Shown: positions 14,998-48,213 of the stretch, piece after piece | Position numbering within the stretch: the stretch's first letter is position 1 | Layout: the number at the start of each line of letters is the position of its first letter | Position numbers and translations under genes: made by a program | Source of the DNA: Clostridiales bacterium | Lineage (GTDB): Bacteria > Bacillota > Clostridia > Oscillospirales > CAG-272 | Direction of reading: 5' to 3' | DNA: 64,000 nucleotides | Assembly: GCA_012514145.1 (NCBI GenBank) | Contig: JAAZAV010000026.1 | Location: forward strand, 1-64,000 | Notes under the pieces: generated by a model | Database searches by the model: none | The model's input: only the letters and a program-made list of their open reading frames with translations | Told to the model about the DNA's origin: nothing

Positions 14998-15026
14998 TTG
15001 ATAATGATGTAAATGTATGGTAATAT
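14998..15026 (+). promoter_or_regulatory. Putative sigma-A promoter TTGATA-N17-TAATAT
   Basis: -35 14998-15003, -10 15021-15026, upstream of the 15079 CDS/operon. Confidence 0.5.
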
Positions 15027-15078: not shown

Positions 15079-16071
15079 ATGAAAAACGAGTACGGTTTTA
15101 TAACCGCAGAATCCTTGACGCGCGACGGCAGCGCCGATGTGGCGGACCTGCTTCAAACACTGATAAACGAGAATCCGAACCGCACAATATACCTGCCGGA
15201 CGGTGTGTATCTGCTTTCCCACACTATCTTTACCCCGGCAGACCCTAAGCTGAGCGTTGATCTGCAGCTCTCAAATTATGCCACGCTGAAAGCCTCGGAT
15301 GACTGGAGCGGCGGACCACTGGTATCGCTTGGCGGAATTTATCCGGCAAACGATACCCATACGCCGGGCAGCAACTATTCATTCACCGGAGGCATTGTCG
15401 ACGGCTCAGGCAAGGCGGACGGAATAACCATAGCCGGCGGGCGTGAGACGGCTGTAAGACGTGTATCAATCAAGAACACTCCGGTGGGTCTGACAATCGA
15501 TTTCGGCGCCAACAGCGGCTCCTCCGACTCGGATATATCGGATGTCAATATAATCGGCACCAACACCCGTGAATCGATAGGCGTGATCGCGCGCGGCTAC
15601 GACAACACCTTCACCAACATGCGAATCGGCGCGGTGTACCGCGGTTTCGAGGTCTATTCCTCGGGCAACATTCTGCGCAATATACATCCCCTATACTATG
15701 GCGATTATGTCGATTACGAGGACAGCTGCGGCTTCTACGACAAGGGCGGCAACAACTGGTACGACTATTGTTACAGCGATCAGTTCGGCACCGGTTTTAT
15801 CGCCGAGGGCAATATAAAGAGCATCTTCGAAAAGTGCTTTTGCTTCTGGTACTCATCAAAGGGTAAAAATCTGGTTGGCTTTCGCGCCGACGGTAAGTTC
15901 AACTCGCTTGTTACCGGTTTCAGAGTAGACTTCCGGGGCGACACCGAGAATACTCTGCTCAAAGTGCGCGAGGAAGGCGGTTACGGCGTAATGGAAAACC
16001 TTTTAGCGAATCCCGCCATATTTGACACGGCGCCGCTTGAACCGTATCTGCGCGGAACCATACTCGGCTGA
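15079..16071 (+). CDS. Right-handed beta-helix protein, pectate_lyase_3-like
   Basis: 'LQTLINENPNRTIYLPDGVYLLSHTIF' N-terminus plus repeated beta-helix turns; start at ATG 15079 after taaggagcatttca. Confidence 0.7.
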   Translation: MKNEYGFITAESLTRDGSADVADLLQTLINENPNRTIYLPDGVYLLSHTIFTPADPKLSVDLQLSNYATLKASDDWSGGPLVSLGGIYPANDTHTPGSNYSFTGGIVDGSGKADGITIAGGRETAVRRVSIKNTPVGLTIDFGANSGSSDSDISDVNIIGTNTRESIGVIARGYDNTFTNMRIGAVYRGFEVYSSGNILRNIHPLYYGDYVDYEDSCGFYDKGGNNWYDYCYSDQFGTGFIAEGNIKSIFEKCFCFWYSSKGKNLVGFRADGKFNSLVTGFRVDFRGDTENTLLKVREEGGYGVMENLLANPAIFDTAPLEPYLRGTILG

Positions 16072-16095
16072 GCGCGGCGGGAGGCTATATGTAAT

Positions 16096-18276
16096 ATGTA
16101 CGATATACTAAAGTTCAACTTTCAACACCCCACGCCAGACTTCACGCCCTATCCCTTTTGGCTGCTGAACGACGAGCTGGAGGAAGGGGAGCTGATCCGT
16201 CAGATAGACGATTTCAAGGCACATGGCATTTATGGCTTCATACCCCACCCGCGCATGGGATTGTCGAGGAATATCCCTTACATGTCCGAGCGCTGGCTGG
16301 ACTTGGTGGAGCTTTGCGTAAAGCACGCCAAAGAGCAGGGAATGACAGTCATACTCTATGACGAGGCGTCTTACCCGTCCGGCTCCTGCTGCGGTCAGGT
16401 TGTGGCAGCCGACCCGTCATTTGCCTCCCGCTGTCTGAGGATGAATGATGTAGACGACTATACTTTGGGCGAAGGCGAGCGGATAGTCGCCACAGTGGGC
16501 GGACATGTCTTTATCGAAGGCTTTACCGGCGGTACAATCCGGGGAGTTCATGAAGGACAGGACGACGGTCAGCCCGATGCTCCCGCCTCCGCTGACCTTC
16601 TGAACCCCAAAGCCACCGCGACATTCATTGAGCTGACACATGAAAAGTATTTTAGACGTCTGGGTAAGTATTTCGGCGAGACGATAATCGGCATTTTCAC
16701 TGATGAGCCGTCTCTCACCGGCCGGCGGAACGTAATAAAGGGCAGTATCAGCTGGACGGCGGAGTTCCTATATGACTTCATTGAAGCGGGCGGGTGCACA
16801 GAATGGCTGACGCTGCTCTTCGGTCCCGAGAACGAGGAAAACGCACCCGCGAGACTGGCGTATAAACGTGCCATTCGTTCAAGGCTCGCCGAATGTTATT
16901 ACAAGCCTCTGTCAGACTGGTGCAAAAACCACGCCATTGCACTGACCGGACATCCCGCACACGGCGGGGAGACCGATGTACAGCGTTTCTTCGGCATTCC
17001 CGGTCAGGACCTTGTCTGGCGCTGGGTAGAGCCGGGAACCGAGCTGACAGCGCCGGAGAGCGTGGTCGGAAAGTGTTCGGCAGACTCGGCGCGGCACCTG
17101 GGCGCACCGCGCAACATGAACGAGGTGCTGGGCGTCTGCGGCAAACAGGGCAACCCCTGGGATTTCACCGTTTCGGATATGATGTGGTACTTCAACTACC
17201 TTTTCGCCCGGGGCGTGAATATGCTTGTGCTGCACGCATTCTACTACTCGCTGCGCACGCCGCTGCAATATGGTGAGCGCCCGCCGGATGTGGGACCGGG
17301 CAACATCTGGTGGAAGCACTACAACAGAATAGCCGAATATATCAAGCGCATGTGCTGGCTCAATACATCAGCCACCAACCATCCATACTGCGCCGTGCTG
17401 ACCGACGGTATAACACTTCCGGTTGAGCCGGTCAGAGAGCTGTATGAGAGGCAAATCGATTTCAACTACCTGGACATGGGTGTCTTTGAGTCAAAAGCAG
17501 AGATTGCCCGCGGAACCTGCACCTGCAGCCGATACAGCTATGATGTAATCTGCCTGCCCGGGGACGTTGAACTTACCGAAGGTGCGGCGGAAAAACTGAA
17601 ACTCTTTGAGATGACCGGTGGTAGAGTGCTGCGCGGAGATGATTTCGCTGAGGAACTTATTAAGTTCGTTTTGCTCGATGACATGTTCATACCCGACGGC
17701 GAGGATACCGGCAGGCTGCGTCTTGTTCGTCTCACAAAATGCGGTATCCCTTACATTCTGTTGGTAAACGAGGGAGACACCGCCATGTCCGGCCGCCTGT
17801 GCACAAACAAGGTTGGAGCCTGCGAGGAGTTCAATCCCTGGACGGGCGGAATATCTCCCGCTGACATCATCGCAGCGGATGAAAAGACCATGACGGTTGC
17901 CGTAACCGTTCAGCCGCGAATACCCACCATAATTGCGGTGAATCCCGATATGCAGCCCGTGTTGCATATGTCGCGGACTCTGACTGAGTTGACAGCTTAC
18001 CCGATTGATTCGGACAAGGTTACCATAACAAAGCGCGGCGATGCCGAATATTTCATATGTGCCGACGAAGTGCGGGATCTGGCGGACATTTTTGTAAACT
18101 ACCGCTCGGCGGGGACGCTGATGTTCATACCGTTTGAGGTGGATGTAACCGATTACATAAAGGACGGCGATAACCGTATTACAGCAGAAATCACCGGCAG
18201 CATGGCTAATAAATACGGGAAGCCGGTACCCACAGGCATATCCGGGCTGAGACTCGAAGAAAGAGTATATAACTGA
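16096..18276 (+). CDS. Glycosyl hydrolase, GH106 (alpha-L-rhamnosidase)-like with C-terminal GH2-type beta-sandwich
   Basis: 'PFWLLNDELEEGELIRQIDDFKAHGIYGFIPHPRMGLS...YMSERWLDLVELCVKHAKEQGMTVILYDEASYPSG' and 'IIGIFTDEPS'; C-terminal 'FIPFEVDVTDYIKDGDNRITAEI'. Confidence 0.72.
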   Translation: MYDILKFNFQHPTPDFTPYPFWLLNDELEEGELIRQIDDFKAHGIYGFIPHPRMGLSRNIPYMSERWLDLVELCVKHAKEQGMTVILYDEASYPSGSCCGQVVAADPSFASRCLRMNDVDDYTLGEGERIVATVGGHVFIEGFTGGTIRGVHEGQDDGQPDAPASADLLNPKATATFIELTHEKYFRRLGKYFGETIIGIFTDEPSLTGRRNVIKGSISWTAEFLYDFIEAGGCTEWLTLLFGPENEENAPARLAYKRAIRSRLAECYYKPLSDWCKNHAIALTGHPAHGGETDVQRFFGIPGQDLVWRWVEPGTELTAPESVVGKCSADSARHLGAPRNMNEVLGVCGKQGNPWDFTVSDMMWYFNYLFARGVNMLVLHAFYYSLRTPLQYGERPPDVGPGNIWWKHYNRIAEYIKRMCWLNTSATNHPYCAVLTDGITLPVEPVRELYERQIDFNYLDMGVFESKAEIARGTCTCSRYSYDVICLPGDVELTEGAAEKLKLFEMTGGRVLRGDDFAEELIKFVLLDDMFIPDGEDTGRLRLVRLTKCGIPYILLVNEGDTAMSGRLCTNKVGACEEFNPWTGGISPADIIAADEKTMTVAVTVQPRIPTIIAVNPDMQPVLHMSRTLTELTAYPIDSDKVTITKRGDAEYFICADEVRDLADIFVNYRSAGTLMFIPFEVDVTDYIKDGDNRITAEITGSMANKYGKPVPTGISGLRLEERVYN

Positions 18277-18299
18277 TTAAATTAACAGGAGGAAATATT

Positions 18300-19637
18300 A
18301 TGTATCCGGTTTGGCTTGAATATCAGAGAGAGATGGGCGGCTGGAGCGACACCACTATGTCGCTGGGCGCAGAATACAAGCAGGCATTCGAGGAGGGCAA
18401 GGATGTAGAAGCCCTCAAGCCGGTGTTTGACGCGGTGATTGCGCTTGAATCATCCGACTCCAAGAAGCGGCTTGCCAACGACCTGTATGATATCGTTCAG
18501 GAACTGCCGATCCGCGAGGGCTATCCCTATGTGGAGCCTTCGGATCTTGAGGGCATCAAGGCAGCCCGTCCGGCGAACCGTCCGGTTCTGCCGGCGATTC
18601 CCGATGACAAAAAGCTGCTTGACCGTTTCCGCGGCGCATGGTACGGACGTGTCTGCGGCTGTCTGCTGGGCAAACCAATCGAAGGCTGGAGAGCTCACCA
18701 GATTATCGATTATGCTAAAGCCACCGGCAACTGGCCTATAAACTACTATCTCAAGACAGATGCCGAAGCTGCTGCAAGGGTCGGTCAGTCTCCCAACCGC
18801 TGCTTTATAGATACAGTCAAGGACGCTTCTCCCTCCGACGACGACACCAACTATACCGTAACCGCGCTCAAGCTGATAGAAGCCAAGGGCAAGGAATTCA
18901 CCCCCTCCGACATGGCTTTCGCATGGTTTAAAAACGCCACTGTCTTTGCTTACTGCACGGCTGAGCGCACGGCATACATCAACCTGCTTGCCGGCATCAA
19001 GCCGCCTTATTCGGCAACCCACCGCTCACCCTACCGTGAGTTCATAGGCGCCCAGATACGCGCCGACTACTTCGGGTATATCTGCCCCGGCAATCCCGAG
19101 CTGGCCGCCGAACTTGCATGGCGCGACGCCTGTATTTCTCACGTCAAGAACGGCATATACGGCGAGATGTTCGTCGCAGCAATGCTGGCAGCCGCCGCCG
19201 TCACCGATGATCTCCGCCTCGTTATCGAAGCGGGTCTGGGCGAGATTCCGGCGAACTGCCGCCTCGCCGAGGATATAAAGGATGTGCTGAAATCATACGT
19301 TGAGGGCAAGATATTTGACGTCGCCCTCAACGCCAAGTATTCCGAGAACAAAGACTGGTGTCTGACCCAAGCCAACGCAATGATAGTTGTTGCGGCTCTG
19401 CTCTGGGGCGAATTCGATTTTGCAAATACTATACACCTGTCGGTTGTTACCGGTTTTGACACCGACTGCAACGGCGCCACCGCCGGTTCAATCCTCGGCA
19501 TGCTCAAGGGCGACGCAATTGTTCCGCAGGAGTGGAAGGCTCCAATCTGCGGCAAGCTGCGCACCTCTATCGCCGGCTATGAACTGGTAGAAATCGATAA
19601 AATGGCGGAAATCACCCTCAGACATTCCAAGCTGTAA
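18300..19637 (+). CDS. ADP-ribosylglycohydrolase-fold family protein
   Basis: 'RFRGAWYGRVCGCLLGKPIEGW', 'DASPSDDDTNYTVTALKLIE', 'VVTGFDTDCNGATAGSILGM' metal-binding motifs of the ARH/DraG fold; RBS aggagg. Confidence 0.88.
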   Translation: MYPVWLEYQREMGGWSDTTMSLGAEYKQAFEEGKDVEALKPVFDAVIALESSDSKKRLANDLYDIVQELPIREGYPYVEPSDLEGIKAARPANRPVLPAIPDDKKLLDRFRGAWYGRVCGCLLGKPIEGWRAHQIIDYAKATGNWPINYYLKTDAEAAARVGQSPNRCFIDTVKDASPSDDDTNYTVTALKLIEAKGKEFTPSDMAFAWFKNATVFAYCTAERTAYINLLAGIKPPYSATHRSPYREFIGAQIRADYFGYICPGNPELAAELAWRDACISHVKNGIYGEMFVAAMLAAAAVTDDLRLVIEAGLGEIPANCRLAEDIKDVLKSYVEGKIFDVALNAKYSENKDWCLTQANAMIVVAALLWGEFDFANTIHLSVVTGFDTDCNGATAGSILGMLKGDAIVPQEWKAPICGKLRTSIAGYELVEIDKMAEITLRHSKL

Positions 19638-19655
19638 AGCCCGAATAAAAACTAT

Positions 19656-19693
19656 GCTCCCGTCAGAGCTATTCTGACGGGAGCGTTGTTTTA
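19656..19693. terminator. Terminator between convergent genes
   Basis: GCTCCCGTCAG-loop-CTGACGGGAGC-gTTgTTTT. Confidence 0.85.
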
Positions 19694-19700
19694 TATAAGT

Positions 19701-21512
19701 TTATTTAGCTTTAAGAGTAAATACCGTCTCGCCGTCGGCTTTTCCGAAGAGGCGCACGCGGTGCAGACGGTCGGTGCTCCACTCGCGGGTGAGTTTCGGG
19801 TCGAGAGGGAAGGTATCGACCTCGGCTTTGTCATATCCGCAGTAAACGGCATTGACTCCGGCGTCGGGCAGGGTAAAGGAACCATCCGAAAGCTTCGGCT
19901 CCTCGGAGCACATCAGCGAGAGAACAAAACTGCCATCACCGCCGAGTTTGACTTTATCTGTTACCAGGAAACCTTCATCATCGAGCTTAACCGTGCGGAT
20001 ATAAGAAATAATCTCAGCCTCCGACGGGTAGGCAGCTTTCAACTCCACCGAGAAACAGCGGTCGCTGCATGAGAGCAGCTCTGCATGATAAGCTCTGCCG
20101 GGCTTCTGCTCACAGCCATTGATTTCCGGCAGATTGTGGCAGAGAGAGCGCATAGCCCAGAGGGTATAACGCTTTGAACTGAATGTTTCCTTACAGTAGG
20201 TCTCCACGCCCGGGTCAACAAACACCGGCTTGCAATCCTTGAAGAGTATGAAGGAGCCAACATCGTTGTGATTGTGACTCTCGGCGTTGTGACCGCCTTT
20301 TACGGCGGTTACCATGCCTCCGGCGTTTCGCGCAATCATTACGCAAAGACCTTCGTAGAAGATGAAATCCGGGGCATCGTATTTCAAAGGCTCGGGGGCA
20401 GGCTCATACATGTTCATGACGGCGCGCCAGAGAGTGTGGCTGTGGTGCCAGCCTCTGGGTCTGTCATTTCTTGCAGCCATTGCCGTGAGCTTGTCTGAGC
20501 CGGTAACTCTGCCCATACGCGCCAACAGCGCAGAATCGCAGCCTAAAATATGCGGTGCATCCGCGAAGTTGGCATAAATATTTCCGCAGAGATTGAAATC
20601 GGCAATATACTCGCACATGCGGCGCAGGAAGGGATCTTTAACGAGAGAAACACTGCCGCCGGTCAGCTCGGAAATCAACTCGACACAGTCAAAATAGGAT
20701 GCACCGGCAACTCCCCAGTAGCTGGGACCTTCATCGCAGCCGCCGTCGGAGGGATAATCTTTTGTAAAACGGTCGATATAGGTAACGGAACGAATTACGG
20801 CTTCTTCGCGTTTTCCGTCGTCCGACTCGCAGAGCATAATTGCGAACAGTACATTCGAGACGATCCAGGGTGTCCAGTTGTTGAGGGCTCTCCCCTCGTT
20901 GCCCTTCCACCAGCAGGTGCCTTCAAAATCATTGAGATAACCGTGGAAAATACGCTTTTCAATGAGTTTCTTGAGACGAGAACGAATAACCGGCGTCACA
21001 GGATCAAGTACCTTGCCGCCGAAGTACCACACATAAGCCATCGCCGCGCCGGTCATGGCCGAGAAGAGATCTATGTTGCGCACATCGTCATCCTCGTCAA
21101 GCATGAATGCGTCGGGCAGGCAGTTTATGGGGTTGCCGTGATCCGGATGGTTATGAGCCGGTATGACCCAGGTGGATTCCTCGCAGATTGCCCAGATGTA
21201 GTCAACCAGCAGGTCGGTGAATCGCCCTTTGCCCTCGGTCAGTTCGGCGGTGAGCAGAGTGGTCGCTGCGGCTCTGCGGGCGAAATAGGGTCCTTCATAG
21301 TTTGAGCGGTTGCCGTTGCGATAATACTCCATGTATAGGGTAGCCGGCAGTTCCGGAACCGGCTTGCCGAGATATGCCTCGGCAGCGGCTATAGAGTTGG
21401 GAGTGCTGATCTCCTTGTTCGCAGCCGGAGTGCCGGCAAACGGAACGAATTCGGCAAAGGGTATCAGTTTGCCGCGTACGGTGAGATTGTTGTCTTCGTA
21501 GAGCTTTGGCAT
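19701..21512 (-). CDS. Heparinase II/III family protein
   Basis: 'VKGGHNAESHNHNDVGSFILFKDCKPVFVDPGVETYCKETFSSKRYTLWAMRSLCHNLPEINGCEQ' typical heparinase II/III C-terminal domain; start at MPKLY (21512) with RBS ggaggag. Confidence 0.85.
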   Translation of the reverse strand: MPKLYEDNNLTVRGKLIPFAEFVPFAGTPAANKEISTPNSIAAAEAYLGKPVPELPATLYMEYYRNGNRSNYEGPYFARRAAATTLLTAELTEGKGRFTDLLVDYIWAICEESTWVIPAHNHPDHGNPINCLPDAFMLDEDDDVRNIDLFSAMTGAAMAYVWYFGGKVLDPVTPVIRSRLKKLIEKRIFHGYLNDFEGTCWWKGNEGRALNNWTPWIVSNVLFAIMLCESDDGKREEAVIRSVTYIDRFTKDYPSDGGCDEGPSYWGVAGASYFDCVELISELTGGSVSLVKDPFLRRMCEYIADFNLCGNIYANFADAPHILGCDSALLARMGRVTGSDKLTAMAARNDRPRGWHHSHTLWRAVMNMYEPAPEPLKYDAPDFIFYEGLCVMIARNAGGMVTAVKGGHNAESHNHNDVGSFILFKDCKPVFVDPGVETYCKETFSSKRYTLWAMRSLCHNLPEINGCEQKPGRAYHAELLSCSDRCFSVELKAAYPSEAEIISYIRTVKLDDEGFLVTDKVKLGGDGSFVLSLMCSEEPKLSDGSFTLPDAGVNAVYCGYDKAEVDTFPLDPKLTREWSTDRLHRVRLFGKADGETVFTLKAK

Positions 21513-21557
21513 TATTTCTCCTCCATTACATATGTGCTGCACCGGCATCGGGCAGGC

Positions 21558-23717: not shown

Positions 23718-26700
23718 ATGAAAAAAATTATGAAGAACAGCTTCCTTTCACCGCCCGATATTTATCGCGGCACCGATTTCTGGATGCTTAATGACGCACT
23801 TTCGGATGATGAAATCCGCAGGCAGATATCTGAAATGCACGACAAAGGTATATGGTCGTTTATAGCGCGCACCTACATAGGTCTGAAATCTGACTATCCC
23901 GGTCCCGGCTTCAAGAGCAGTCTGCGCACAATCGTTGACTGCGCAAAAGAGCATGACATGAAAGTATTCCTGCAGGCAGGTTACATGCCCGAGGCGGTGC
24001 TTGATCTGCCGCCCGAATATGCGCTCTATTATCTCATATCATATAAAAGCGGGGAAGTGCCCGAGGGTACTGAGATAGTCGCATCTTTCGACAACTATGA
24101 CATTGCTGCGGTAAATTCTATGACATTCCTTAATATGTTCCTGCCCGAGGCAGTGCAGTTCTATATTAAGCAGAGCTATGAGGACATGTGGACAGACTTC
24201 CGCGGCGAATTCGGCAAGACCATCATATCAATCTGGGTGGATGAGCCAAGCTATGGCAGGTCGGGTATGCCCTGGATGCCGCAGCTGCCGGAGCTCTTCC
24301 GCGAGCGTTGGGGTTTTGATATACTGCCCCATATTGAATCGCTTTACAATGACCTGCCCGAGAGCAGCCGTGTGCGCTACTGCTATCGCATGCTGATTGC
24401 AGAGCTGCTGGAGAATGCTTATTTCCGTATGGTGCGCGAGTGGTGCAACACAAACGGCGTATGGTTCAGCGGCCACCTCATGATGGAGGACACAATGACG
24501 GGCACCATCGCCCGCGCAGCCCATACCATGCCGTACTACAAGTATTTCGATATACCCGGCATCGACCGTCTAACCGCCGGGATGAACTGGCGGAACATGG
24601 AAATAAAGGAGCCGGGTGGAAGAATCGCCCGTCGGCACAACGCCTATACCACACCGCTTCAGTGCACATCAGCGGCGCATCAGTCGGGGGCGGGGCATAT
24701 ACTTGCCGAGATGTACGGCGTTACCTCCCAGAATATGGCGTTCCGCGAACAGCGCTGCATGTTCGACAGCTATGCGGTGATGGGCATCAACCACCGCAGC
24801 GTACACGGCATCTTCTACTCGCTTCACGGCAGAGGCAAACGCGCCTTCCCGGTACATGTCAACTATTACCAGCCGTATTGGAAGGATTACCGCCGCATGA
24901 CCGATTATGTCTGCCGAACCTCCTGGTTCATCTCACAGGGCAGACCGGTGCGGGATATAGCGGTAGTTCATCCCATGTATACCGCATATATGTACGAGCC
25001 GGCGTCTCTGCCCGGCAGACCGAAGGTTTCGAAAACCGGCAGGCTTGACTGCGCCTTTTATGATCTGCTTTTCTACATGTCGCACGACCGGCTGGACTTT
25101 GAACTGGTGGACGAAAAGACCATGGCTGACTGGGGCTGTCTGCGCGAAGGCGGCATCGGGGTAGGGAAGATGACCTACAGAACCATGGTGTTCCCATATA
25201 TGGAAACTGTGGATGATACAACTCTGGCGCTGGTACGAAAACTGTCGGCTTCGGGAGGCGAAATATTCTTTGTCGGCAGGTTCCCGGACAGAATCTGCGG
25301 TGAGCTGTCTGACACTCTCGCTGATGAGCTGGCGGGTCTGCCCGGAGTCACGCTTTGCGACGGCTTTGCCGAACTCGCAAGAGCACTTAAAAACTATCGT
25401 CCCAACTATCTGGTAGATTGTGCTGACGCCTCGCCCATTCTCTGCAATCACCGCGCCGATGGCGATACACATTACTACATGTTATACAATTCCGACTGTG
25501 CAGAGGGGCGAACAGGGCGATTCATACTCAATGGCAGCTATCGCGTGACGCTGTACGATGCCGCCGACGGAAATACAAGGGCACTCCCGGCTCAATACGA
25601 TGCGGGCAATACCTTTGTGGATATTGAAATCCCCGAAGGTAGCTCAATTCTCCTCCGTGCCGACGGGATTGCCTGTAATGAAGCTCAATCTGAAGTTCAT
25701 GATATGCCGCTCGAAACGGTGCGGCGCCTGTCATGCAGAGATTTTGAGTATAAACGTCATGAGGACAACTGTCTGCTGCTGGAGTTCGCCGAATATAAAG
25801 CGGGTGACGCTCCATACTCGCCGCCGATGCCCGTTATGGCGATTCACGAGCAGCTGACGGCAAAGGAATACAGGGGACCTCTGACTCTGAGATTTACTTT
25901 CACATCCGAGAAAGTGCTGACCGGCCTGAAACTGGCGTTGGAGGACGCTGAACAGCATGAGATATTCCTCAACGGCGAGCGTGCCGAAAATATACCCGAG
26001 GGATACTATTTCTCGCGTTCCTTTGAAACTGTAAAACTGCCCGACAGCTGCCGTGTCGGTGAGAATGAGCTGATTCTCAAGCGCGAATTTGTGCCGCTGT
26101 CAAAATACAAATCGGCGATAACTTCGCTGTTTGAGCATCAGAAGGGATGCGAACTTGAATCGGCGTATCTGCTGGGAGATTTCGCGGTAATCGGGCAGCC
26201 CGAGCCGACCTTCAGCGGCTGTCTGAGATATGACCGGCGCTTTATACTCGGCGAAGAGAATTCAACGGTCGGCAGCGAGCTTACCTCTGCGGGCTATCCC
26301 TTCTATACCGGGAGTTTTGAGCTGACGACAAATTTCAACATGACCGCTGACGAACTGGCAAAGCCCGAAGTCGTACTGCGTACATCCTTCATCAATGCTG
26401 CTATCGCTGATGTGGCGGTGAACGGGAAATCAGCCGGCAAGCTGCTCTGGGCACCCTATGAGATTGATATTCGTCAATACCTGAACGAGGGCGTGAACAA
26501 CCTGACCCTGACCTTGACAAACACTCTGCGCAACCTGCTTGGACCCTATCACCGTCCCGAGGGCGAGGTTGGCAATCTCTTCGGAGGCGGCTATACCAAC
26601 CCCAATAAACCCTGGACCGGTGGTACCACAGACTCCGAATGGTTCCTTTACCGCGAACCCGACACAGCCGAATGGGCTGAAGGCTATCTTCAGCAGCCCT

Positions 26701-26735
26701 TTGGTATTGGCGGGCTGACAATAGTAAGCAGATAA
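23718..26735 (+). CDS. Glycosyl hydrolase, GH106-like with C-terminal GH2-type beta-sandwich domains
   Basis: 'DFWMLNDALSDDEIRRQISEMHDKGIWSFIARTYIGLKSDYPG', 'ISIWVDEPSYG', C-terminal 'VNGKSAGKLLWAPYEIDIRQYLNEGVNNLTLTLTNTLRNLLGPYHRPEGE'. Confidence 0.75.
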   Translation: MKKIMKNSFLSPPDIYRGTDFWMLNDALSDDEIRRQISEMHDKGIWSFIARTYIGLKSDYPGPGFKSSLRTIVDCAKEHDMKVFLQAGYMPEAVLDLPPEYALYYLISYKSGEVPEGTEIVASFDNYDIAAVNSMTFLNMFLPEAVQFYIKQSYEDMWTDFRGEFGKTIISIWVDEPSYGRSGMPWMPQLPELFRERWGFDILPHIESLYNDLPESSRVRYCYRMLIAELLENAYFRMVREWCNTNGVWFSGHLMMEDTMTGTIARAAHTMPYYKYFDIPGIDRLTAGMNWRNMEIKEPGGRIARRHNAYTTPLQCTSAAHQSGAGHILAEMYGVTSQNMAFREQRCMFDSYAVMGINHRSVHGIFYSLHGRGKRAFPVHVNYYQPYWKDYRRMTDYVCRTSWFISQGRPVRDIAVVHPMYTAYMYEPASLPGRPKVSKTGRLDCAFYDLLFYMSHDRLDFELVDEKTMADWGCLREGGIGVGKMTYRTMVFPYMETVDDTTLALVRKLSASGGEIFFVGRFPDRICGELSDTLADELAGLPGVTLCDGFAELARALKNYRPNYLVDCADASPILCNHRADGDTHYYMLYNSDCAEGRTGRFILNGSYRVTLYDAADGNTRALPAQYDAGNTFVDIEIPEGSSILLRADGIACNEAQSEVHDMPLETVRRLSCRDFEYKRHEDNCLLLEFAEYKAGDAPYSPPMPVMAIHEQLTAKEYRGPLTLRFTFTSEKVLTGLKLALEDAEQHEIFLNGERAENIPEGYYFSRSFETVKLPDSCRVGENELILKREFVPLSKYKSAITSLFEHQKGCELESAYLLGDFAVIGQPEPTFSGCLRYDRRFILGEENSTVGSELTSAGYPFYTGSFELTTNFNMTADELAKPEVVLRTSFINAAIADVAVNGKSAGKLLWAPYEIDIRQYLNEGVNNLTLTLTNTLRNLLGPYHRPEGEVGNLFGGGYTNPNKPWTGGTTDSEWFLYREPDTAEWAEGYLQQPFGIGGLTIVSR

Positions 26736-42768: not shown

Positions 42769-43833
42769 TCAGCCGAGGGGAGTTATCTGAACTTCATGGC
42801 CGGTGCGGGCTGACTCATAGATGGCGTCGATCATCTGCATGAGCACGACACCGTCGTGTGCGGGAGCGCGGCACTCGGTGCCGTTTCTGACGCAGTCCAC
42901 AAAATGAGCAATTTCGCGTATGAATATATCACCGAAGGCTGCCGATTTGTTGTACTTCTCCGCAGAGATGATGTCGTTAGTTCCGTCGGTGCGGTAAACC
43001 TGAAGTGGCTCGGAGATTTTAATGCCCGCCTTTGTTCCGAAAATCTCGACGGTGCCGGTGTCCTTCTCGATATTGAGGCTGAAAGAAGCGGCAACATGCA
43101 TAACGAAACCGTTGTCAAAGCGGATAAAACCGGTGGCGAAATCCTCAACGTTGCGCTCGAATTTTCCCGTGGTACTGCTGACCCATACCTTTTCGCCGCC
43201 TTCGGTTGCAAGCAGTTTCTTGAAGGTGACGCCGTAAGCAGCCACCGGCTTCGGACGTCCGGCAAGGTAGCGCGCAAGGTCCATGACGTGAACGCCCAGG
43301 TCAATGAGCGGTCCGCCGCCCGAGTAGCGCAGATCGCCGAACCAGCCGCCGGGACAGCCGTTGCGGCGCAGATAGCTGACGTTTGCGAAGTATATATCTC
43401 CCGCCTCGCCGCCGTCGATATAGTCCTTGGCAGCTTCGACACCGCCCTCGTAGCGGCGAACAAAGCCGATCTGAAGCAGCTTGCCGTTGCGTTTGGCTGC
43501 CTCTTCCATCTTGAGAGCCTCGGCGGTGTTCATAGCCATGGGCTTCTCGCAGATTACGTTGCAGCCGGCGTTCAGCGCCGCGACCGTAGCTCCGCAGTGT
43601 GCGGCGTTCCAGGTGGTGACCGACACGGCATCCAGCTCTTCCTTAGCCAGCATCTCATTGTAATCGGTGTAGAGATTCTTGATACCGTACTTCTCGCCGT
43701 AAGCCTTGAGTTTTGCCTCGTCGATATCGCAGGCTGCCGTAACCTCACAGATATCGGAAAGCGCCAGATAACCGCCCATATGGCAGTGGCTGATACCGCC
43801 GGTACCGATTATTGCAAGTTTGGTTTTTTCCAT
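42769..43833 (-). CDS. Gfo/Idh/MocA family oxidoreductase
   Basis: 'KLAIIGTGGISHCHMGGYLAL', 'CEKPMAMNTAEALKMEEAAKRNGKLLQIGFVRRY', 'GGPLIDLGVHVMDLARYL'. Confidence 0.95.
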   Translation of the reverse strand: MEKTKLAIIGTGGISHCHMGGYLALSDICEVTAACDIDEAKLKAYGEKYGIKNLYTDYNEMLAKEELDAVSVTTWNAAHCGATVAALNAGCNVICEKPMAMNTAEALKMEEAAKRNGKLLQIGFVRRYEGGVEAAKDYIDGGEAGDIYFANVSYLRRNGCPGGWFGDLRYSGGGPLIDLGVHVMDLARYLAGRPKPVAAYGVTFKKLLATEGGEKVWVSSTTGKFERNVEDFATGFIRFDNGFVMHVAASFSLNIEKDTGTVEIFGTKAGIKISEPLQVYRTDGTNDIISAEKYNKSAAFGDIFIREIAHFVDCVRNGTECRAPAHDGVVLMQMIDAIYESARTGHEVQITPLG

Positions 43834-43858
43834 TGTGGTTCTCCTTTGTTTATTGTTT

Positions 43859-46270
43859 TTATTTCAGCTCAGTGAAATCTGTCTCGGATACCCTGCCGCC
43901 GGCGATTCTCCAGCTGCCGAAGCCGAAGGGCTGCAGACTGCCTTCGACGGTTGCGGAGAAAAGTTCTGCCTTGAAGCAGCAGGGCTTGCCGGCGGTTTCG
44001 GCGAATCTGACTATGACGCCGTTTCCGTCCTCGGCGGGCTTTGCTGAGAAGAGTGTGACATTGGGTTCGGAAATCGAAATCGAAGATGCGCGGCGCGGCA
44101 GGCTCCCTTTGTGGTAGGTCTCGGGAATTACCGGGAATTCGGTGTTCAGTTCCTCTGCAAGATGCGCAACAGGTGTAAGATTGCCGTCATACGGCATGAC
44201 TGCGTAACCGAACTTCTGCTCTCCCAGATCCTGCGGTTCCATGCGCTCGTCTCGCTGACCGTAATGGTCCGCATAGTAGCAGCTGCGGGCGGCAATGAAT
44301 CTCATCTCGCCGTTTGCAGCAGATGAGGAATACTTGCTGTCGTTGACAACCGCCACGCCGCGGCCGTTCTCGGTCAGAACCATATAGCGCTGCATCGGAA
44401 GCTCACGCCCCGTCTGTTTGCCGCCTATAACCGTACCCGGAACCTCGCGTATGAATTTGCCGTCGGAAAGACCGCTGTTGCAGCAGAGCTTGACGATAAC
44501 CGGATACTCGTTCAGAATCAGTCTGACCGCTACCCTCACCGCATTGTCGCCCGGATGAAGCGTAAAGGTCTGTTCGAGAGTACTGTTCTTATAGAAGCTC
44601 CTGACAAGCAGGCTGACCTGGCAGTCGCCATCTTCCAGAACCTTGAACTCGGGGGAGGTGAACTCGCCTATCTGATCGTCGAAAACAAAGCGGTTATGCG
44701 CCCATGTATCGTTGGGGCTGTCATCGATTACAATCGCCTTGCCGATATTGCCGCAGATAAAGGTGCCGTCAGATTTACAGAGTTTGCCGATTCCGCTTTT
44801 CGGATCAAATTGCAGGGTTACCTTATCATTTGCAAGCACATGTTCGCTGACGCTGAGTTCATGTTTTGTTTCGGTCTTTTCGAAGGTCTTGTCGCGGTAT
44901 ACGGTATACATGCTCCAGCCGTAAGCCGGCACCTCGGCAATGAAGCGAACTGCGTAAAGGTCGGAGCCGTTGGTATAATCAGCGCGAACCACCTGGAAAT
45001 CAACCGGCTTGCCGTCGGGATCGGTAACCGCCGCGGCGCTGCCCATATGCGCCATATCCACCGGTATCTTCACCGGATGCGACAGCGGATTAAATACCAC
45101 AATCGGGCTGCCCACCTTATCCGAGTCTACGTAAGAGCGCTCACCGCCCTCAAGACCGTCAAGCCATGTATCGATATTCCAGGATATACGCTGAGCCGCA
45201 GCGTTTGAGAGCTTCAGACCCTGTGCGATAGCCGCGCCGTTGAAGGCATAGGCGTCATAATATGCTTCCCGCACCGAGCAGCCGCATATGATGTCGTGGA
45301 ACTGATTGAATATAACACCCTCCCACGCATTTGCGAAGGGCACCGGGTCGCATTTGAAACCGATTGCATTATCGGCAAGCAGACACATGCGCTCAGCCTC
45401 TGTAAGACGATTCTCTGCCGCGCGGTTCATAGCCTTCATCAGTGAATTCGCGGAATAACAGCCGCTTGCGTGGTTCTGCAGCTCGCCGCTGTATATCGGC
45501 ATAACAGCGTTTCTGTGATCGGCAAAATACTCGTCGGGCGAGGAGAAGCGGAAGATATTCTTACTCTCCGGTGCGTGTTCGTGGAGGAGGTCTATATTGC
45601 GTTTGGTGGGACCGCCGCCGTGGTTGCCGACGCCGTAGAACATCATAATGCCCTTGCTCTCCGCATCGGCAAGATTGTCGTATTCGATTATCGGCTGTTT
45701 GTCGTTAATGCGTATACAATATGGGTCTTTAATATGGAAGGCGAGAATCTCATCGTTCCCGCAGCGCCATCTGAAGGTGCGCTCGGGGAAGGGATACTTC
45801 ATCTCGGCGCCGTTAGCCGGGCGCATGTAGGCATAGCCGCTCATAGCGCCTGCTTTAAGCAGGGAAGGCATTCCGGCGGTGTGGCCGAAGGAGTCCACAT
45901 TGTAGCCTGTGACGGCGATTCTGCCGAATTTTTCATAGAAATAACGCTGCGAATAGAGCATATGACGGGCAAAACTCTCGGTGGACGGTATGTTGCAGTC
46001 GGGCTGTACCCACATGCCGCCGGTGAAGCACCATTTGCCGTCCTTAACCGCCTGCCTGATCTCCTCAAACATCTCCGGACAGTTTTCCTCTACCCATTTG
46101 TAGTAGGATGCACATGCCGAGGTGAAGACGAAATCATCGTATTCATTTATTCTGTCAAGAGCCGAGCGGAAGGAAGCCTTGATTTCGGCGAAGCCTTCCT
46201 GAAAACGCCAAAGCCATACGGGGTCGATGTGAGCATTGCCTATAAGATATACGGTTTTTTTGTCTGTCAT
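43859..46270 (-). CDS. Alpha-mannosidase, GH38 family
   Basis: 'VYLIGNAHIDPVWLWRFQEG', 'CFTGGMWVQPDCNIPSTESFARHMLYSQRYF', 'YNVDSFGHTAGMPSLLK'. Confidence 0.93.
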   Translation of the reverse strand: MTDKKTVYLIGNAHIDPVWLWRFQEGFAEIKASFRSALDRINEYDDFVFTSACASYYKWVEENCPEMFEEIRQAVKDGKWCFTGGMWVQPDCNIPSTESFARHMLYSQRYFYEKFGRIAVTGYNVDSFGHTAGMPSLLKAGAMSGYAYMRPANGAEMKYPFPERTFRWRCGNDEILAFHIKDPYCIRINDKQPIIEYDNLADAESKGIMMFYGVGNHGGGPTKRNIDLLHEHAPESKNIFRFSSPDEYFADHRNAVMPIYSGELQNHASGCYSANSLMKAMNRAAENRLTEAERMCLLADNAIGFKCDPVPFANAWEGVIFNQFHDIICGCSVREAYYDAYAFNGAAIAQGLKLSNAAAQRISWNIDTWLDGLEGGERSYVDSDKVGSPIVVFNPLSHPVKIPVDMAHMGSAAAVTDPDGKPVDFQVVRADYTNGSDLYAVRFIAEVPAYGWSMYTVYRDKTFEKTETKHELSVSEHVLANDKVTLQFDPKSGIGKLCKSDGTFICGNIGKAIVIDDSPNDTWAHNRFVFDDQIGEFTSPEFKVLEDGDCQVSLLVRSFYKNSTLEQTFTLHPGDNAVRVAVRLILNEYPVIVKLCCNSGLSDGKFIREVPGTVIGGKQTGRELPMQRYMVLTENGRGVAVVNDSKYSSSAANGEMRFIAARSCYYADHYGQRDERMEPQDLGEQKFGYAVMPYDGNLTPVAHLAEELNTEFPVIPETYHKGSLPRRASSISISEPNVTLFSAKPAEDGNGVIVRFAETAGKPCCFKAELFSATVEGSLQPFGFGSWRIAGGRVSETDFTELK

Positions 46271-46345
46271 ATTGCCTCCGCAGTTGTTTATTCGGTTTAT
46301 ACACCATGTTTTTATTTGACAGGTGTCGTTGCGATACCGCTTATC

Positions 46346-46374
46346 ATTATACAGCCTCCGGAAAGATAACGCAA
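46346..46374 (-). promoter_or_regulatory. Putative sigma-A promoter TTGCGT-N17-TATAAT for the GH38 gene
   Basis: - strand: -35 46374-46369, -10 46351-46346. Confidence 0.6.
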
Positions 46375-46395
46375 TAGTAAAATTAGGATTATCTC

Positions 46396-46424
46396 TTGCG
46401 GCAGTCCGTCCGCTGTGCTATAAT
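46396..46424 (+). promoter_or_regulatory. Putative sigma-A promoter TTGCGG-N17-TATAAT
   Basis: -35 46396-46401, -10 46419-46424, upstream of the 46471 CDS. Confidence 0.65.
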
Positions 46425-46470
46425 CAGCATAATGACAATTTACGAATACACTTTAATATCGGAGGAAATT

Positions 46471-48213
46471 ATGGACAGAATATACCTTAGCTCATGCGGT
46501 ATAATTCCCGGCTGCGATATAACCGAAAAACTTCACGAAATCTTCAATGCGCATCCGAGCGACACCGAGTTCGTCTTTGATAAGGGTGATTATTACTTCC
46601 CGCCAAAGCTGTCGCGTGACTATCGACTGTCTAATACCGACGTTATTCCCGAGAGAAAACTCGGTATCTGGCTCCGCGATATGAAGAATATAAAGATCGA
46701 CTGTTCTGGTTCCAGGTTTCTGTTTTCGGGTCACATGTCGGCTGTCACGCTTGATAACTGTGAGAATGTGGAGATAAGGAACTGCATCATCGACTGGCTA
46801 AAGCCGTTGGCAGCCGAGGGAATTGTTACCGGCTCGGGTGACGGCTATATTGACATGTTTGTCTCATCCGATATATTTCCCCATCGCTACCGTGACGGAT
46901 GGCTGGAGTTCAACGTCGGCAACGGCGAATGGTATCCAATGAGCCGTTACAGCCATATTCAATTTGACGCGGTGACCCGAACCGTGAGACGCGCCAGCGG
47001 CGACCGCTTCAGCGCAAAGACCATCGAAGACCTGGGCGGCGATATCTACCGCTTCGGCTGCGGCTACACCGATACATCGATAGGAAATATCTTTGTTCTG
47101 CGGCATAATGAGCGCATGCATGCGGGCATATTCACAGAGCGCTGCAGGTCGGTTGTGTTTGAGGATATTACATTCCATTCCTGCGGCGGACTTGGCTGTC
47201 TTGCCCAGTTCTGCACCGATCTGACATATCGCCGCGTGAACTTCCTGCCCAACACGAAAGCAGGGAGAAAGGTGGCAAACGGACGCGATGACGGCATGCA
47301 TATCACCTGCTGCTCCGGTCGTGTTACCATCACCGAATGCTCCTTTACCGGGCTTATGGACGACCCGATAAATGTTCACGGCTGCTGTGTCACCGCCGCC
47401 GAAGCGGTCGACAGCCGGACTCTGCGCTGCCGTTTCCGTCATCCGCAGGCTCAGGGCTTCTTCTACTGGGCGAAAGCGGGAGACGAGATAGCTTTTATCG
47501 AGCGCCGGCACATGGAAACCCTCGGAACTCTGAGAGCATCCGGATATTCGCTTGAGACGCGCGATACTTTCCTTATAAGCTTTGAGTCCGATATCCCTTC
47601 GCGTTATCTTGAAATGATTGATGACCCGGAATGCATGGCGCTTGACAACCTAACAAATACTGCCGAGTTTGTCTGCACCGACAATCGCTTCGGCAGCTGC
47701 CGCGCCCGGGGAATTCTGGTCTCAACTCCGAAGCCGGTTCTCATTGCGCGCAATATATTTGCGTCGTCGGGCTGTGCGGTGCTGGTTGCGGGTGACGCCA
47801 ACTACTGGTTCGAGTCGGGCGCGTGCCATGATGTGGAAATCCGCGATAATGTCTTCACCGACGCCTGTCTTTCATCGATGTACCAGTTCTGCGAGGGTAT
47901 TATCAGCATCTGTCCGGTGGTGCCCGAGCCGAAGACAGATAAGCCCTTCCACAGCAATATTAGAATTACCGGCAACCGCTTCGACACCCCCGATACGCCG
48001 GTTCTCTATGCCTTTTCCTGTAAAGGATTGAACTTCACGGGCAACACAATAACCTCCTCGCCGTGTGCCGACAAATGGCACGGAGGAACCGCACTGATAA
48101 AGCTTAATCACTGTATTGATGCCGAATTGAGCGGCAACCTGAAGGTCGGCACCTTTAATCTGAATGACATTGAAACCGCCGACTGTGAAAATATACGGTG
48201 GAACGGTAAATAA
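46471..48213 (+). CDS. Right-handed beta-helix protein, GH110 (alpha-1,3-galactosidase)-like
   Basis: 'VTLDNCENVEIRNCIIDWLKPLAAEGIV', 'NGRDDGMHITCCSGRVTITECSFTGLMDDPINVHG' resemble GH110; start ATG 46471 after ggaggaaatt. Confidence 0.65.
   Translation: MDRIYLSSCGIIPGCDITEKLHEIFNAHPSDTEFVFDKGDYYFPPKLSRDYRLSNTDVIPERKLGIWLRDMKNIKIDCSGSRFLFSGHMSAVTLDNCENVEIRNCIIDWLKPLAAEGIVTGSGDGYIDMFVSSDIFPHRYRDGWLEFNVGNGEWYPMSRYSHIQFDAVTRTVRRASGDRFSAKTIEDLGGDIYRFGCGYTDTSIGNIFVLRHNERMHAGIFTERCRSVVFEDITFHSCGGLGCLAQFCTDLTYRRVNFLPNTKAGRKVANGRDDGMHITCCSGRVTITECSFTGLMDDPINVHGCCVTAAEAVDSRTLRCRFRHPQAQGFFYWAKAGDEIAFIERRHMETLGTLRASGYSLETRDTFLISFESDIPSRYLEMIDDPECMALDNLTNTAEFVCTDNRFGSCRARGILVSTPKPVLIARNIFASSGCAVLVAGDANYWFESGACHDVEIRDNVFTDACLSSMYQFCEGIISICPVVPEPKTDKPFHSNIRITGNRFDTPDTPVLYAFSCKGLNFTGNTITSSPCADKWHGGTALIKLNHCIDAELSGNLKVGTFNLNDIETADCENIRWNGK

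Follow-up and report, generated by a model that had tools for sequence, protein, structure and literature searches.

The 64,000-nucleotide stretch of Clostridiales DNA analysed here (the window) carries a run of three closely spaced genes, the last of which encodes a 445-residue ADP-ribosylglycohydrolase (ARH)-fold protein, P0001 (18300..19637, plus strand). We hold with moderate confidence that P0001 is a cytoplasmic two-metal hydrolase of a divergent branch of PF03747, the DTDC branch, and most likely a small-molecule glycosidase; proteins carrying ADP-ribose are probably not its substrates. The run formed with a beta-helix gene and a GH106-like gene is particular to its lineage and cannot serve to define the substrate. 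The label ADP-ribosylglycohydrolase is routinely given to ARH-fold proteins but is unsafe for inferring ADP-ribosylation signalling, and the present results suggest that sugar or nucleoside salvage is the proper setting of a large bacterial branch of the fold, with at least 592 relatives, many of them in Clostridia of herbivore guts, confirmed in a genome scan. In about half of the clade of P0001 the ARH domain is joined to a DNA-binding domain for which a putative operator can be identified, and direct tests are now possible of the substrate and of what may be a new kind of enzyme-sensor regulator. No activity data for the DTDC branch were found in the open-licence papers searched, and its function is read here from sequence, structural modelling and gene context.

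P0001 is a member of the ADP_ribosyl_GH superfamily PF03747 by both profile and fold. The full profile is covered (residues 112-411, E=5e-51, 174.5 bits against a cut-off of 26.2), and an AlphaFold model built with 61 homologues (pLDDT 93.8, pTM 0.94) has ARH3, MJ1187 and DraG as its nearest folds, at 15-18% identity and with TM scores by target of up to 0.78. Ahead of this domain lies a helical extension of approximately residues 1-103 (EEG...EPSDL; 18300..18608, plus strand), which is conserved across the clade and in which E32, G33, E79, P80 and I86 are invariant in both alignments (A1 and A2). The clade was taken from 120 close-homologue loci (100 after removal of redundant ARH sequences), mostly from Clostridia metagenome-assembled genomes (MAGs) of herbivore guts with a few from Armatimonadota and Chloroflexota, and was profile-aligned with 23 canonical ARHs from the same phylum. 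The genomes are mostly draft MAGs with genes called as simple open reading frames, and the high-GC loci, where greedy calling had missed genes, were rechecked by tblastn.

The earlier note had described the metal-binding set as intact, which is correct for the acidic residues. D181, D182, D387 and D389 align with the four aspartate metal ligands, the codon at 18681..18683 (plus strand) encodes E128, the conserved catalytic glutamate of ARH enzymes by profile alignment, and all five residues are invariant in A1 and A2. The hydroxyl ligands of the canonical site, in contrast, have been replaced throughout the clade by Asp180 and Cys390, so that the set is modified rather than simply intact. In ARH3 these hydroxyl ligands are Thr76 and Thr317, while Asp77 and Asp314 contact the 2''- and 3''-hydroxyls of the ribose (PMC8141533), and the motifs of ARH1 and ARH3 are [T/S]DDT and DxD[T/S] (PMC6309922), where P0001 has DDDT (D180-T183; 18837..18848, plus strand) and DTDC (D387-C390; 19458..19469, plus strand). 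The form DDD[TIL] occurs in all 100 clade members and [TS]DDT in all 23 canonical proteins, and DTDCN is found in 99 of the 100 and in none of the 23. P0001 also lacks the GNGxxMR loop of characterised ADP-ribosylhydrolases of the ARH1/ARH3/DraG type (0/100 in the clade, 18/23 in the canonical set), in whose place the profile alignment puts REFIGAQIR (R246-R254; 19035..19061, plus strand), and the corresponding pattern RExxGAQIR is present in 98 clade members and in no canonical protein. The canonical TH histidine persists as the histidine of an SH pair, H281 (19140..19142, plus strand), invariant in A1 and A2. DTDC or DVDC types are also found in many other PF03747 proteins; the second ARH of the window genome (L081:8805-10706, contig C51), of 633 residues and with a C-terminal extension, is of the NDDL...GYDTDCT type.

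It is unlikely that P0001 is a conventional ADP-ribosyl-acceptor hydrolase that has come to lie beside sugar genes by chance. It shares with ARH3, ARH1 and DraG the fold, the glutamate, the four aspartate ligands and the TH-type histidine, and other kinds of ARG-centred systems have been proposed to counter ADP-ribosylation (PMC9503650). However, both Thr/Ser ligands are changed and the GNGxxMR loop is gone clade-wide, P0001 carries a long N-terminal helical extension that those enzymes do not, and the recurrent genomic partner of the clade is a ribokinase, with no ADP-ribosyltransferase among the listed families having at least two adjacent genes. Mutation of a single metal ligand abolished activity in ARH enzymes (PMC6309922), and replacement of both Thr/Ser ligands in P0001 could alter or abolish catalysis, a point that also weighs against the glycosidase reading preferred here.

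The preferred reading of P0001 as a small-molecule glycosidase draws on the gene neighbourhood of the clade, in which ribokinase is the sole enriched neighbour. Ribokinase-like genes, identified with a kinase profile, account for 12 of the 108 adjacent co-directional genes as against 3 of the 1148 other genes at the same loci (p=3e-11), and three of these neighbouring kinases pass the ribokinase equivalog cut-off. A figure of 14 kinase loci obtained by clustering was discarded in favour of the 12 of the profile recount, as the cluster had chained AraC regulators and two-component proteins. PfkB also heads an independent Pfam tally (11 of 89 adjacent proteins) and is absent among the families listed for the distant control. 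The adjacency is scattered over the tree of the clade with 10 changes and thus is not one inherited pair, and the kinase is present in only about an eighth of clade loci. At L069 and L161 a ribokinase-like gene, the clade ARH and a second ARH form one run; at the former (L069:7217-11856) the ribokinase is fused to an AraC HTH and the second ARH is lipoprotein-like with a PKD domain.

Links to nucleoside salvage were also observed in the wider branch, in other classes of the phylum, where 14 of 49 DTDC-type ARH genes have a salvage gene (ribokinase, nucleoside hydrolase, NupC-type permease or DeoC) on the same strand within 6 kb, a count offered as support rather than as a statistic. Domain calls in this set come from Pfam for ten proteins and from profile matches or inspection by eye for the remainder. 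Two loci (L304 and L325) encode, in order, a BMP-type nucleoside-binding protein, an ABC ATPase, two permeases, a nucleoside hydrolase and the ARH, and at L326 the same BMP/ABC transporter is followed directly by the ARH. At six others (L297, L309, L318, L322, L329 and L336) the ARH and a ribokinase occur with LacI, ABC-transporter or DeoC genes, L336 having the run DeoC-ribokinase-ARH. One of them (L318:5989-10358) carries four tandem PF03747-type genes behind LacI, ribokinase and a sugar-type ABC transporter, the LacI and permease calls being made by eye. The association is not exclusive to the DTDC type, as 6 of 17 canonical-type ARH genes in the wider-branch loci also have a ribokinase. 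At L287 and L306 a canonical TDDT-type ARH adjoins a PfkB kinase, with a gene nearby that by eye resembles the T component of an ECF transporter, and salvage links may extend to such canonical ARHs.

The earlier note had suggested a glycosidase acting on a sugar or nucleoside-like glycoside. That suggestion is strengthened by the ribokinase adjacency, the nucleoside operons and the loss of GNGxxMR, and it gains little from the glycan operon on which it had been based. In the proposed mechanism, the metals would hold a ribofuranosyl-like group by its cis-diol, P0001 would hydrolyse the glycosidic bond of a small molecule, and the freed ribose-like sugar would pass to a kinase; in HTH-fused members, the ARH domain may sense the same ligand. 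ARH1 and ARH3 act on alpha-linked ADP-ribose only (PMC6309922), and by analogy an alpha-riboside is the natural first guess for the substrate. The TH-type histidine touches the pyrophosphate in ARH enzymes (PMC6309922), so that with H281 retained the ligand may be phosphorylated. Several observations bear against a riboside. Nucleoside hydrolases accompany only ARH genes outside the clade, none having been found near the clade's own loci, and neither the window locus nor its nearest relatives (56-57% identity) show the salvage linkage of the clade and wider branch, there being no neighbouring ribokinase. In the window genome, a 2.8 Mb draft that is 85% complete, no protein reaches the curated ribokinase cut-off (best 113 bits against 299.65). 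The context of the clade is thus carried over to P0001 from its relatives, and the sugar that it would release may be a different one.

Comparable associations exist in known systems. Nucleoside hydrolases (PF01156) belong to a family unrelated to ARH, yet in NupABC-type operons of the wider relatives an ARH adjoins or replaces the nucleoside hydrolase behind a transporter of the same kind; the window gene lies outside such an operon. In the Bacteroides Rus ribose-utilisation locus, BT2803-2809, one gene is annotated as an ADP-ribosylglycohydrolase. Ribokinase and nucleoside hydrolase are combined there in one ribose-scavenging locus (PMC12596196; gene list in PMC10434189). Rus, however, is an outer-membrane system of Bacteroidota, and no such locus was identified in the window genome.

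The three genes of the window are co-directional, as the earlier note had it, with open reading frames at 15079-16071, 16096-18276 and 18300-19637 (plus strand), gaps of 24 and 23 bp and Shine-Dalgarno-like sequences before all three; the first may alternatively start at 15013. Of the promoter and terminator that they were said to share, the terminator is a good hairpin (19654..19686, bidirectional, with a 15-pair stem on the plus strand and a 12-pair stem on the minus strand) that also serves the minus-strand gene at 19701-21548, whereas the sigma-70-like promoter candidate (14998..15026, plus strand) is weak, matching the consensus at 9 of 12 positions and being one of 11 such matches in the region where 4.1 are expected. 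Crude hydropathy revealed no evident signal peptide in any of the three products. The first product, P0003 (15079..16071, plus strand; 330 residues), had been called a pectate-lyase-like beta-helix protein, and a PF12708 match is present, yet at 23.1 bits it lies under the Pfam cut-off of 27. For the second, P0002 (16096..18276, plus strand; 726 residues with a C-terminal jelly roll), the description GH106-like is fair in view of weak profile and structure matches, and membership of GH106 proper is not borne out: its scores fall below the Pfam and NCBIfam cut-offs, with no Pfam GH106 match at E 0.001 (PF17132, E=0.23), 53.8 bits against a cut-off of 1300 for the BT4145 rhamnosidase model NF049897, confined to the jelly roll, a sub-cut-off 33.7 bits for NF045579, and E about 0.002 against related solved structures.

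This arrangement was seen in the window genome alone, the only representative of its genus among the genomes searched, and a conserved beta-helix/GH106-like/ARH operon was rejected whichever of the three genes was taken as the starting point. Among the 120 ARH loci there is no P0003 homologue and a single, distant and weak P0002 homologue (L169, 24% identity). Conversely, no ARH occurs in 18 loci of P0002 or P0003 homologues; the P0003 homologues (47-57% identity, in 14 other genomes of the family sample) and the P0002 homologues of the family (37-46% identity) are in no case near an ARH. Glycosidase enrichment beside the clade was likewise rejected, as adjacent glycosidases are no commoner than distant ones (rhamnosidases make up 2 of 89 adjacent co-directional proteins in the Pfam tally and 1 of 89 distant ones, where there is also one fucosidase). 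The earlier note had named conservation of this neighbourhood beforehand as the check that could refute it, and the ARH does not co-occur with glycosidases in relatives; a carbohydrate operon thus fails as a clue to the substrate, since a trio that is not a conserved context tells little about it. No paper pairing an ADP-ribosylglycohydrolase with polysaccharide loci was found in the open-licence literature.

We accordingly consider it improbable that P0001 is a plant-glycan glycosidase, acting for instance on a rhamnogalacturonan fragment together with its GH106-like and beta-helix partners, and rhamnogalacturonan as the substrate has no support. The tight co-directional spacing, the ribosome-binding sites and the shared terminator are in its favour, as are the further glycan genes of the region and the nearest relatives (56-57% identity), in which the ARH is flanked by a solute-binding lipoprotein and an SLH or beta-helix protein. 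These points are countered by the uniqueness of the trio, the lack of glycosidase enrichment in the clade and the presence of at least seven GH106-like places in the window genome, which makes one beside an ARH not very surprising. A second GH106-like gene lies at 23718-26735 of the window (PF17132, 57 bits), and the minus-strand gene at 19701-21548, near the trio, is heparinase II/III-like. A further glycan-degradation stretch, recognised by eye at 42769-48213, comprises a MocA-type oxidoreductase, a GH38-like alpha-mannosidase and a beta-helix protein.

An N-terminal XRE HTH is present on 45 of the 100 clade members (Pfam HTH_3, E=6.5e-14, in the protein of L107); in a structural model it folds as five helices set apart from the ARH domain, with a low-confidence linker (residues 71-78) between them. 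Most HTH-bearing members fall into one large group when a tree is built from the shared region, with 19 changes on the best tree and 3 forced by starred branches; P0001 clusters outside this group with its nearest relatives and L063 (support 90-91), placing the window gene by sequence in an HTH-less sister lineage. The tree gave no support for a link between HTH fusion and ribokinase, with 3 independent pairs only. XRE HTH-ARH loci include L082, L083, L103, L107, L120 and L149 and about 40 further ones, approximately half of them with a palindrome upstream. No paper describing such a fusion was found in the open-licence literature, and an XRE HTH fused to an ARH-fold enzyme is apparently an undescribed architecture.

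Of 46 HTH-fused genes, 24 have the exact palindrome CAAC-N5-GTTG in the 250 bp upstream, where shuffling gave a mean of 0.19 and a maximum of 2, and none of 53 HTH-less genes has it (Fisher p=1.3e-10). This p-value is optimistic because the motif was spotted by eye in 20 upstream regions that all lie inside the set later counted. Better evidence comes from the HTH-less members, which lack the palindrome, and from loci outside the training set. A position matrix built from 25 sites, with 4.5 Mb of strand scanned, matches almost only HTH-ARH promoters and two other XRE genes, and the matches at HTH-ARH promoters outside the training set are at L247, L248, L104, L094 and L077. The window contains one exact match (60188), as many as chance would give, and P0001 has neither an HTH nor such an operator upstream.

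A role for the ARH domain chiefly in ligand sensing, or as a pseudo-enzyme, with HTH-fused members as repressors and HTH-less members binding the same ligand in a different regulatory capacity, accords with the frequency of the fusion, the upstream palindrome and the altered metal ligands, but is decidedly unlikely, as the four aspartates, the glutamate and the histidine are (nearly) invariant in HTH-less members too, which suggests that catalysis is under selection, and as P0001 itself is without HTH and operator. Tentatively, and with somewhat less than even confidence, we propose that HTH-ARH proteins autoregulate through CAAC-N5-GTTG and sense the riboside that they hydrolyse, that an adjacent ribokinase completes the salvage, and that P0001 is an HTH-less sister enzyme. 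ARG-centred anti-ADP-ribosylation systems similarly link an ARH-fold protein to one-component HTH regulators (PMC9503650). In those systems a Nudix or WYL protein distinct from the ARH carries the HTH, accompanied by phosphatases and chaperones, whereas in the clade of P0001 the ARH chain itself bears the XRE HTH and the companion is ribokinase.
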